From an uncultured Saprospiraceae bacterium (lineage in GTDB: Bacteria; Bacteroidota; Bacteroidia; Chitinophagales; Saprospiraceae), in contig CALIAG010000038.1 in the NCBI GenBank assembly GCA_938041325.1, forward strand, positions 1-54,454: a stretch of 54,454 nucleotides of DNA, read 5' to 3'. The notes below the pieces were generated by a model that was not told the origin of the DNA, did not search any database, and saw nothing but the letters and a program-made list of their open reading frames with translations. Of this stretch, positions 41,822 to 45,479 are shown one piece after another. How positions within the stretch are numbered: the stretch's first letter is position 1; each line of letters begins with the position of its first letter. The translations under genes and the position numbers were made by a program.

Positions 41822-41843
41822 GGGACGCAAATTCTAGCGTCCC
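41822..41843. terminator. Hairpin between convergent lipoprotein gene and mnmG
   Basis: GGGACGC (41822-41828) pairs with GCGTCCC (41837-41843) with an 8-nt loop. It overlaps the mnmG stop codon (41836-41834). T-runs are short, so it is only a probable terminator. Confidence 0.5.
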
Positions 41844-43699
41844 ATATGAATTAGCAATACTGAAATATCTGATGGAGAAACGCCGCTGATTCGGCTGGCT
41901 TGACCAATGGTTCTTGGTTGCAATTGATTCAGCTTTTCTCTAGCTTCATTGGACAAACTAACCAGTTGATTATAGTCAAAACCTTCTTTTAAAATGACGC
42001 TTTCAAGGCGGCTCATTTTATCTACCATTTCCTGTTCCTTTTGAATATAACCTTCATATTTAGAATTGATTTCCGCAATTCTAACCGTTTCATCATCGTA
42101 TTGGTTCAAGTAGTCATTTAGTCTCGGAATACTTTTGCGAAGGTCGTCTAAAGAAATTTGTGGACGAGATAGCACATTGATCAATTTCATTTTTTGCTTC
42201 ATCGGAGCAGAGCCTTTGCTCTCCAACATCGGATTCAATTCATCCGGCCCCACACTTTCTTTTCTAAAATGTTTTTGAATGATAGCAGTAATCTCTGTTT
42301 TATGATTTACTCGATCCAAGCGATTCTCCATATGGGCCATTCCTAATTTCTTCGCAAGTGGAGTAAGCCTTAAATCAGCATTGTCTTGACGCAGAAGAAT
42401 TCGGTATTCAGCACGGGAAGTAAACATACGGTAAGGTTCGTCGGTCCCTTTGTTTACAAGGTCATCAATCAGTACACCTATATAAGCTTCAGATCTTTTG
42501 AGTACAAAAGGCTCTTTGTCATTGATTGCGTTATGCGCATTTATTCCAGCTATAAGGCCTTGGCAAGCAGCTTCTTCATATCCTGTTGTACCATTGATCT
42601 GACCAGCAAAGAATAGGTTTTTAACCAAGCGAGTTTCTAACGAAACCTTTAATTGTGTTGGTGGAAAATAATCGTATTCAATTGCATAACCAGGACGAAA
42701 CATCTTGGCTTTTTCAAATCCAGGAATGAGCTGCATGGCTTTGTGCTGAACATCTTCAGGAAGAGAGGACGAAAATCCATTTACATATATTTCTACTGTG
42801 TCCCAACCTTCTGGTTCCACAAATAATTGGTGACGATCTCTGTCTGCAAACCGATCAATTTTGTCTTCAATAGAAGGGCAATACCTCGGACCAACTCCTC
42901 TGATTCTGCCATTAAACATTGGTGAACGATCAAAGCCCGTTCTTAATATATCATGAACTTTTTTATTGGTATACGTCACATGGCATGGACGTTGCTTCTC
43001 CGGAAGACTTGTATTTGTAAAAGAAAATCTTCCTGGGTTTTCGTCTCCTGGCTGAATTTCCATTTTATCCCAATCAAGACTTCTGCCATCCACTCTTGGA
43101 GGTGTACCGGTTTTCATTCTACCAGATTCAAAACCAAGTTCAAGAAGTTGTTCTGTAATTCCTGTACTTGCGCGTTCTCCTGCCCTACCACCACCAAATT
43201 GTTTTTCACCAATATGAATGATCCCATTCAAAAATGTACCATTGGTTAGAACGACACTTTTGGTTTCAATCTCCATTCCTATTCCCGTTCGCACACCGAC
43301 AGCTCGGCCATCTTTCACCACAATTCCAGTGACCATCTCTTGCCAAAAATCAATGTTTTCATTTGCTTCAAGCATCAAACGCCACTTATTAGCAAATTGC
43401 ATTCTATCACTTTGTGCTCTTGGACTCCACATTGCAGGCCCCTTAGACAAATTCAACATTCTGAATTGAATCATGGTTTCATCGGTTACAATCCCCGAAT
43501 AACCACCAAGTGCATCGATTTCACGAACAATTTGTCCTTTTGCTACTCCACCCATTGCTGGGTTACAGGACATCTGAGCGATCGTCTGCATATTCATCGT
43601 TGCCAGTAAAACTTTGGACCCCAAGTTGGCAGCAGCAACAGCCGCTTCACAACCAGAATGCCCAGCACCTACTACAATTACATCGTATTTTGGAAACAT
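41834..43699 (-). CDS. mnmG: tRNA uridine-5-carboxymethylaminomethyl enzyme MnmG (GidA)
   Basis: With MnmE, modifies the wobble uridine of several tRNAs, using FAD and methylene-THF. The 621 residues show the FAD dinucleotide motif VIVVGAGHSGCEAAVAAA, the MSCNPAMGGVAKGQIVREIDALGG signature, RVDGRSLDWDKM, GPRYCPSIEDKI and AGQINGTTGYEEAACQGL, plus the helical C-terminal domain ending ISGVSPSDISVLLIHM. An in-frame TTG at 43720 is upstream, but the ATG at 43699 puts MFPKYDVIVVG at the usual position. A TAATTTTG box (43725-43718) precedes it, and a MITE-like element abuts that promoter. Confidence 0.98.
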   Translation of the reverse strand: MFPKYDVIVVGAGHSGCEAAVAAANLGSKVLLATMNMQTIAQMSCNPAMGGVAKGQIVREIDALGGYSGIVTDETMIQFRMLNLSKGPAMWSPRAQSDRMQFANKWRLMLEANENIDFWQEMVTGIVVKDGRAVGVRTGIGMEIETKSVVLTNGTFLNGIIHIGEKQFGGGRAGERASTGITEQLLELGFESGRMKTGTPPRVDGRSLDWDKMEIQPGDENPGRFSFTNTSLPEKQRPCHVTYTNKKVHDILRTGFDRSPMFNGRIRGVGPRYCPSIEDKIDRFADRDRHQLFVEPEGWDTVEIYVNGFSSSLPEDVQHKAMQLIPGFEKAKMFRPGYAIEYDYFPPTQLKVSLETRLVKNLFFAGQINGTTGYEEAACQGLIAGINAHNAINDKEPFVLKRSEAYIGVLIDDLVNKGTDEPYRMFTSRAEYRILLRQDNADLRLTPLAKKLGMAHMENRLDRVNHKTEITAIIQKHFRKESVGPDELNPMLESKGSAPMKQKMKLINVLSRPQISLDDLRKSIPRLNDYLNQYDDETVRIAEINSKYEGYIQKEQEMVDKMSRLESVILKEGFDYNQLVSLSNEAREKLNQLQPRTIGQASRISGVSPSDISVLLIHMGR

Positions 43700-43717: not shown

Positions 43718-43725
43718 CAAAATTA
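43718..43725 (-). promoter_or_regulatory. -7 box of mnmG
   Basis: TAATTTTG on the minus strand matches TAnnTTTG and gives a leader of only 10-15 nt. The -33 position would be about 43746-43749, directly at the border of the inverted-repeat element that starts at 43750. Confidence 0.5.
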
Positions 43726-43749: not shown

Positions 43750-43914
43750 TAAGTAGTTCACGGAATTAAGTTAACTAATAAATTGAATGAACAATTTTCT
43801 TGATCCTTCGTTGAAAATACTCGTCGATGCTATGGCATCGCCTGGGTTTTTCAACTCGTCTAAATCAAATTTTCTTTCCAATTTATTGTAAACCCAATTT
43901 CCGTGAACTACTTA
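43750..43914. mobile_element. 165-bp MITE-like inverted-repeat element
   Basis: TAAGTAGTTCACGGAA (43750-43765) is exactly complementary to TTCCGTGAACTACTTA (43899-43914). The arms continue to match imperfectly inward (AATAAATTG at 43777-43785 with CAATTTATT at 43880-43888). The centre forms another hairpin: GTTGAAAA (43810-43817) with TTTTCAAC (43848-43855), and CGATGC (43825-43830) with GCATCG (43835-43840). The element is bounded by TA on both sides (43750-43751, 43913-43914), compatible with a TA target duplication as made by IS630/Tc1-type transposases. It has no ORF. This is the usual make-up of a miniature inverted-repeat transposable element; a large RNA hairpin is the alternative. Confidence 0.7.
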
Positions 43915-44057: not shown

Positions 44058-45479
44058 ATGGCTAGACAAGCACTGGAAACTGAACAAAAAGCCCTCGAAA
44101 TAAACCTAGACGATAAAGTCTATGGCACTTTTGCTGAAATTGGGGCAGGGCAGGAAGTTGCAAGGCATTTCTTTACTGTCGGCGCTGCAGCTGGGACAAT
44201 TGCAAAGACAATGTCGGCTTATGACAAGGTCTATTCGGATAAAATATATGGAGTAGAGGCCAGTGGCAGATACGTTTGTGAATCTCGTCTCTATAAAATG
44301 CTGGATCATGAATACGATCTTATGATGAATCGGCTTCAAGACGAGCGACCAGATACCAACTTTTTTGTATTTGCGGATACCATTTCTGCATTAAATTATT
44401 CTCGGACGATTTTAGGAGACGGTTGGTTAGGAATTAGATTCCAACTGCATCCTGATGGGGAGACCAATGATTTGATGCTTCACGTAAAAATGTTGGATAA
44501 CGATACCCAACTTCAAGCGCAAGCAATAGGAATTTTAGGGGTAAACCTAGTTTATGGTTGTTATCATTATAACCACGATTTAGAAACCTTATTAGAATCT
44601 CTTTTGGATAATTTACATGGCCGTGTGAAAGTGGATATGGTTAGATTGAAAGGACCTGACTTTACAGATATCGATAACCGGTGGCTCTGCTTGCTATTGG
44701 TAAAGCATAAGCTAACGGATGTGACCATTTTTGATTCAAATGGTCAAGGAATTCATGCCTCTGAATTTTTATATAAAAAAGATGTTCTCATTGTAAGAGG
44801 GAGTTTCCGTCCATCTACTTTGGTGAATGAAGACATGATAAAGACCAGCTATAAACAGTTTCGAAATGAAAAAGAAGTAGATCCGCGACGCACATTCTTG
44901 TTGACAGAAATTACGATGGACAATCTTTGCGCAGAAGGTCATCTTGATGAAAAAGACTTTATGGATCGGGCAGAGTTATTGTGCGCAATGGGTCAAAATG
45001 TAATTATTTCAAATTGTGATAAATACTCAAAACTAATAACCTACTTTTCTGACTTCAAAGTGAAGCACTTGGGATTAGTTGTTGGGGTGCGACAGTTATT
45101 GAAAATCATTAATGAAAAATATTACAACAATTTAGACGGGCATTTACTTTCTGCTTTTGGAGACTTGTTTAATCGCCATGTACAAATGTATGTTTATCCA
45201 TCTTTGCAAGAAGGAAGTGCTGAATTAATGACTGCAAAAAATCTTCCTATTCCAGATGGAATAAAGTTTCTCTTTCAGCACCTATTGGATAATGGGCAGA
45301 TCAAGGATGTTGAAGGATTTGAAGAAGAAATTCTCCATATCTATTCAAAACAAGTCTTAGAGATGTTGCGTTCAGATGAGGAAGGATGGGATAAAATGGT
45401 TCCTGAAAAGGTAGCAGAGTTGATCAGAGATAAATGTTTATTTGGATATCCTTATAAACAAATGGAATTCGAATATTAA
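44058..45479 (+). CDS. Conserved cytoplasmic protein of unknown function
   Basis: A 473-residue soluble protein with no signal peptide or membrane segment. I recall close relatives in Bacteroidota and other phyla under conflicting names (TonB-dependent receptor, NMN adenylyltransferase), neither supported by the sequence: no barrel strands and no HxGH-type nucleotidyl motif. Very characteristic stretches are YGTFAEIGAGQEVARHFFTVG and AAGTIAKTMSAYDKVYSDKIYG near the N-terminus, FFVFADTISALNYS and GWLGIRFQLHPDGETNDLMLHVKMLDND in the middle, and a Gly-rich GILGVNLVYGCYHY segment. The GAG and GAAAGTIAK segments could bind a nucleotide or phosphate; that is a guess. An M15 lipoprotein gene starts 7 bp after it. 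Confidence 0.85.
   Translation: MARQALETEQKALEINLDDKVYGTFAEIGAGQEVARHFFTVGAAAGTIAKTMSAYDKVYSDKIYGVEASGRYVCESRLYKMLDHEYDLMMNRLQDERPDTNFFVFADTISALNYSRTILGDGWLGIRFQLHPDGETNDLMLHVKMLDNDTQLQAQAIGILGVNLVYGCYHYNHDLETLLESLLDNLHGRVKVDMVRLKGPDFTDIDNRWLCLLLVKHKLTDVTIFDSNGQGIHASEFLYKKDVLIVRGSFRPSTLVNEDMIKTSYKQFRNEKEVDPRRTFLLTEITMDNLCAEGHLDEKDFMDRAELLCAMGQNVIISNCDKYSKLITYFSDFKVKHLGLVVGVRQLLKIINEKYYNNLDGHLLSAFGDLFNRHVQMYVYPSLQEGSAELMTAKNLPIPDGIKFLFQHLLDNGQIKDVEGFEEEILHIYSKQVLEMLRSDEEGWDKMVPEKVAELIRDKCLFGYPYKQMEFEY

Follow-up and report, generated by a model that had tools for sequence, protein, structure and literature searches.

What usually defines a miniature mobile element is its pair of ends, the inside being free to vary, and ends shared with an autonomous element are common, though not universal, among MITEs. 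A 2-bp TA duplication is the mark of the IS630/Tc1-mariner group, and among plant MITEs the Stowaway elements (Tc1/mariner) duplicate TA, whereas the Tourist elements (PIF/Harbinger) duplicate 3-bp TNA/TWA targets. These two target-duplication classes parallel the two end classes of the core-bearing elements described below, with the differences that the present elements are bacterial and that both end classes carry one core.

We analysed a stretch of 54,454 nucleotides (the window) from an uncultured Saprospiraceae bacterium, in which a short palindromic unit lies beside mnmG. The RUP elements of Streptococcus pneumoniae with IS630-Spn1 and the Correia/NEMIS elements of Neisseria are nearest in kind to this element. 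RUP is likewise non-coding, about 100-160 bp long, intergenic and strongly folded, with IS630-like inverted ends and TA borders; it differs in its sequence, its length of 107 bp and its single end type in one species, and the accessible parts of these papers describe no core that RUP has in common with elements of another transposase family (PMC2229807, PMC3049150). Correia/NEMIS elements share a length of about 155 bp, a TIR of 24 bp, TA termini, a long RNA hairpin and an internally shortened derivative, whereas their sequence is another one, and a centre conserved across genera between varying ends belongs to the window element (PMC2229807). MITECca01 of Cardinium is also a miniature element of the Bacteroidota with an insertion-sequence parent, but this parent is IS982, and the element is 240 bp long, lineage-specific and derived directly from it (PMC9769881). 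The BOX elements of pneumococcus resemble the present ones in their modular repeats, variable inner module and RNA fold; their module number varies, and the accessible part of the source describes no swapping of ends from one transposase family to another (PMC3049150).

From its sequence we read the window element as a MITE with IS630/Tc1-mariner-type ends that was probably (at roughly 85%) moved in trans by an IS630 with duplication of TA, that has an old core known with several end types, and that is most likely neutral near mnmG. This reading as a MITE is right and makes the element ordinary in kind; its added value is the long-lived core, the changeable ends and the strand-fixed wobble pairs.

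Build and copies of the unit

The unit at 43750-43914 reads TAAGTAGTTCACGGAA...TTCCGTGAACTACTTA (165 bases). Repeat finding returned one 48-nt inverted pair, with arms at 43750-43797 and 43867-43914 that are 73% complementary overall and perfect over the outer 16 nt, giving a left terminal inverted repeat TAAGTAGTTCACGGAA (43750-43765, plus strand) and its perfect complement on the right (43899-43914, minus strand). TA stands at 43750-43751 and at 43913-43914, the left and right copies of a presumed 2-bp target duplication, and the palindromic, non-autonomous element proper therefore spans 43752-43912 (161 bp, no strand assigned), with limits obtained from the copy alignment. Within its core, an outer helix joins GTTGAAAA (43810-43817) to TTTTCAAC (43848-43855), and an inner hairpin CGATGC-TATG-GCATCG occupies 43825-43840. 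Direct sequence reading and repeat finding thus confirmed what an earlier note on this DNA had described, namely a 165-bp unit with perfect 16-bp inverted ends, TA borders, imperfectly complementary arms and an inner hairpin.

Folded as single-stranded DNA the unit reached -35.2 kcal/mol, compared with -11.2 for shuffles (z -9.4), and its minus strand folded as RNA reached -58.8 (z -9.6). A 16-bp inverted pair within 250 bp appeared in none of 20 Markov shuffles of the window, and the copies in the same genome place the unit beyond chance. In this genome (G000), a draft of 6.3 Mb spread over 578 contigs, we found four additional near-full copies (C394, C380, C96 and C183; 92-95% identical), a partial copy (C185), two shorter two-ended forms (C404, of about 70 bp, and C24) and six one-ended fragments (C533, C436, C100, C285, C250 and C578). 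As far as ORFs show, all are intergenic, and they lie at unrelated loci. A short, non-coding element with terminal inverted repeats is dispersed between ORFs in five near-full copies and their derivatives. Five further Saprospiraceae genomes (G183, G208, G204, G243 and G159) contain units that share these ends and are about 162 bp long. The earlier note's expectation of one copy among many was borne out by this genome search. Near relatives of the window element occur in another Saprospiraceae genome, G097, and on one Flavobacteriaceae contig titled Allomuricauda (L156), where the ends are the same and the core is different yet similarly built.

In a scan of all genomes, exact 15-mer end matches outside Saprospiraceae were rejected as mostly chance, for example the partnerless single matches in Arsenophonus; no viral contig carried the core pattern, and the ends were found there in no element-like pair. 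Among the fragments in G000, the right element end follows another left part, which contains a hairpin AGGGGAATTTATTCCCCT, a chimera common to three loci (L014, L016 and L042, on C285, C250 and C578). Solo ends AAGTAGTTCACGGAATTAAAT and 21-bp palindromes AAGTAATTCACGGAATTACTT are numerous between genes in G097, G091 and G219, often flanked by TA (L246-L260, L266-L280); they may stem from deletion, from insertion of one end or from a mobility of their own.

Target sites and IS630-type ends

Among the copies with these ends, TA was found beside 17 of 21 left borders and, from reading the flanks, 19 of 21 right borders. Set in a 3-bp TNA frame, the same copies showed TAA on the left versus TTA on the right, and the flanks are thus not direct repeats in that frame; identical flanking triplets, as left by an IS5-type 3-bp TNA duplication, occurred in none of them. 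Where miniature elements abut, they share a single TA at the junction (L257, L255). These borders fit a presumed 2-bp TA duplication.

The IS630 DDE domain PF13358 was present in 76 of 248 Saprospiraceae genomes. Nine IS630 insertion sequences of the family, those tested being named IS630 by NF033545 and DDE_3 by PF13358, have ends that start with TAAG[T/C]A or a near variant of it, and the ends of the window element are of this type. In G097, one IS630 (L288) has the ends TTAAGTAGGTTTACC, which also bound a second miniature family there, and in G114 the ends of an IS630 (L348) resemble those of a miniature element of the same genome (L239). An insertion sequence with exactly AAGTAGTTCACGGAA ends, one mismatch allowed, was absent among the matches listed from the 248 genomes. 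The assembly of the window itself gave no IS630 match, being a 578-contig draft from which insertion sequences of high copy number may have dropped out. Across genomes, the core and PF13358 were only weakly associated (13 of 33 core genomes versus 63 of 215 others). The copies in G000 may be stranded, or their transposase may be absent only from the draft assembly. The earlier note had proposed movement by a transposase encoded elsewhere with the same ends; the TA borders and the family's IS630 sequences with ends of this type uphold it in part, whereas an IS630 with the exact ends was not among them and none lies in this assembly.

We infer both that the element was moved by transposition and which transposase moved it, the assembly having no such gene. 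In the proposed mechanism, an IS630 transposase supplied in trans would bind the 15-16 bp inverted ends, excise the element and then insert it at a TA, which would be duplicated. The centre of the element is an old structured core that has travelled in miniature elements whose ends belong to several unrelated types, and these end types would change by coevolution or by recombination of ends around the core.

The core and its fold

A search of the 248 Saprospiraceae genomes with the centre alone (43804-43885, plus strand, about 80 bp) recovered this core in elements with unrelated ends from 33 genomes and 24 of 112 genera. Similarity among the carriers stops at the core edges and the ends differ completely, including GAGCTTGTCCAAA, GAGTATGTCTAAA, AGACTTGTTCAACC, TAAGTAGGTGGACA, TAAGTTCTTGGACA, GTAATGG, AGTAACGAT and TATACTCAACGG, while total length stays near 150-170 bp. 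For the end types starting with GAG and GTAATGG, identical flanking triplets (TAA/TAA, TTA/TTA, TCA/TCA) were found in 19 of 28 copies, with Fisher p = 0.009 for TAA versus TTA flanks, and we take these matching triplets from their sequence pattern as a 3-bp TNA duplication (IS5-like). Loci with PF13340 yielded two IS5-family insertion sequences (NF033580) with GAG-type ends, L490, which has ends GAGCCTGTTTAAA and is flanked by TAA at either side, and L491, located in G035, so that the same core appears between IS630-type and IS5-type ends, an unusual situation. No mobiliser was identified for the GTAATGG type, and a pattern search for insertion sequences with GAGYWTGTYYAAA ends returned only miniature-size pairs. 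The idea of the core as a piece of an insertion sequence was rejected, since it was found inside none and just once beside one, as a distinct element adjoining an IS630. One locus in G097 (L254) is a hybrid, its left half coming from another core type and its right half from the present element, which shows how recombination inside cores could swap ends.

Thus 24 genera or more keep the core, although its ends differ among them and the family of the transposase apparently does so too. We tentatively consider that it may be an ancient parasite in its own right, which changes its transposase (IS630-type versus IS5-type ends by lineage) and is foldable on one strand, implying a single-stranded-hairpin function; this is a possible reading, though one to which we give less than even odds. 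If true, the lasting unit is the element and not its parent. Open-access papers yielded neither an earlier report of a core common to elements of two transposase families nor an earlier description of the element in Saprospiraceae.

In the 15 elements with the window's ends, cells of the core helices were paired in 95% of cases, compared with 30-50% when slid, and 39 cells had changed on both sides, compared with 11.3 in shuffles (0 of 500). For the window element this concerns 6 of 6 counted pairs of the outer helix (43810-43855) and 4 of 6 pairs of the inner hairpin. The helices covary as those of known RNAs do, a signal common to RNA and to a DNA palindrome. When all elements were oriented according to their core, the lineage-specific arms by themselves gave the better fold on the minus strand in 49 of 50 cases (49 of 52 with DNA energies), and arm mismatches on that strand comprised 168 G.U versus 40 A.C, a bias that all 10 end types shared, at a G+T content of only 0.50-0.54. 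The excess of G.U over A.C on a fixed strand suggests selection on a single-stranded fold. The orientation of insertions relative to neighbouring genes was random, without bias, and read-through transcription is therefore not the explanation for the strand preference. Its candidate causes are selection on RNA or on folded single-stranded DNA, or a shared ancestral arm pair, the latter being possible as the independence of the end types is unproven. If read correctly, the strand-fixed G.U preference is a direct and testable clue to the role of the core.

These data bear on the alternative that mobility is secondary and that the unit is chiefly a structure of one strand, either a conserved structured RNA or a hairpin of single-stranded DNA, which acts, for instance, as a transcript or a folded intermediate. 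The covariation, the wobble pairs and better folding on one strand, and a fixed length near 162 bp all speak for such a molecule. On the other hand, the copies are scattered, vary from genome to genome and have transposon-like ends with presumed target duplications, the unit matches no Rfam family above threshold and contains no promoter motif, and its orientation to neighbouring genes is random; moreover, paired changes arise anyway in palindromic DNA and the end types may share ancestry. We therefore regard this alternative as rather unlikely. The strong covariation that the earlier note had named as a sign against a mobile element is present, and it accompanies mobility rather than replacing it.

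Three genomes (G097, G068 and G035; L257, L265 and L072) have a G+C-rich palindrome, CCTGCCTGCC...GGCAGGCAGG, inside the core, as a second tiny mobile palindrome nested in the first. A miniature element with AGTAATGG ends lies within a tRNA gene array in G159 and relatives (L220, 1700-2150). Dozens of similar copies occur in G035 and G229, and their frequent position at the ends of contigs suggests that they spread recently. For one copy in G159, which sits in a rearranged tRNA array, a same-genus empty site was not obtained.

The mnmG locus and a rejected Y1 mobiliser

The element lies between mnmG (gidA; 41834-43699, minus strand; PF01134, PF13932) and a divergent gene for 473 amino acids (44058-45479, plus strand) that has no Pfam or NCBIfam match and stands beside mnmG in three relatives as well (G016, G010 and G019). 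The mnmG-neighbour gap measures 276, 184 and 166 bp in these relatives, which keep the gene pair without the element, versus 359 bp in the window, and in G010, a distant relative, the sequence GCTTAT-CTT is continuous across the insertion point as a base-level empty site. The mnmG -7 box TAATTTTG (43718-43725, minus strand) lies outside the element at a distance of 24 bp, and the box CAAANNTA (TAnnTTTG on the mnmG strand) precedes mnmG in 21 of the 30 loci that were compared, relatives accounting for 20 of them. The setting given in the earlier note, about 25 bp from the -7 box and next to a conserved gene, therefore held; its placement of the element edge at the -33 position amounts to a distance only, as there is no TTG/TTTG motif at the edge.

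A regulatory insertion selected to control mnmG would account for the position so close to the -7 box, yet the remaining copies lie at unrelated loci and relatives lack the element here. A scan for the Bacteroidota -7 motif found none inside the element and no outward promoter, the motif being present in 2 of 57 elements per strand overall, and with the -7 box outside and no -33 box at the edge, the role in mnmG transcription suggested in the earlier note is without support. We consider such control very improbable, and the element beside mnmG is most likely a neutral intergenic insertion.

The idea of a REP/REPIN-type element moved as a single-stranded hairpin by a RAYT (Y1) transposase, which could appeal to the GTAG at the end, the solo ends and inverted pairs resembling REP singlets and REPINs, the strand asymmetry of the arms and the Y1 proteins in 13 of 14 genomes tested, can hardly be upheld, as beside 30 Y1 loci just one sequence came within two mismatches of the end (L300), no RAYT gene was flanked by the ends, the remaining end types do not conserve GTAG, and TA borders with long conserved terminal repeats fit DDE transposition; the Y1/RAYT mobiliser was accordingly rejected.

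In G097, three miniature families with different ends form adjoining insertions at ACTTAAGT junctions and nested clusters (L129, L246, L255, L257 and L259).
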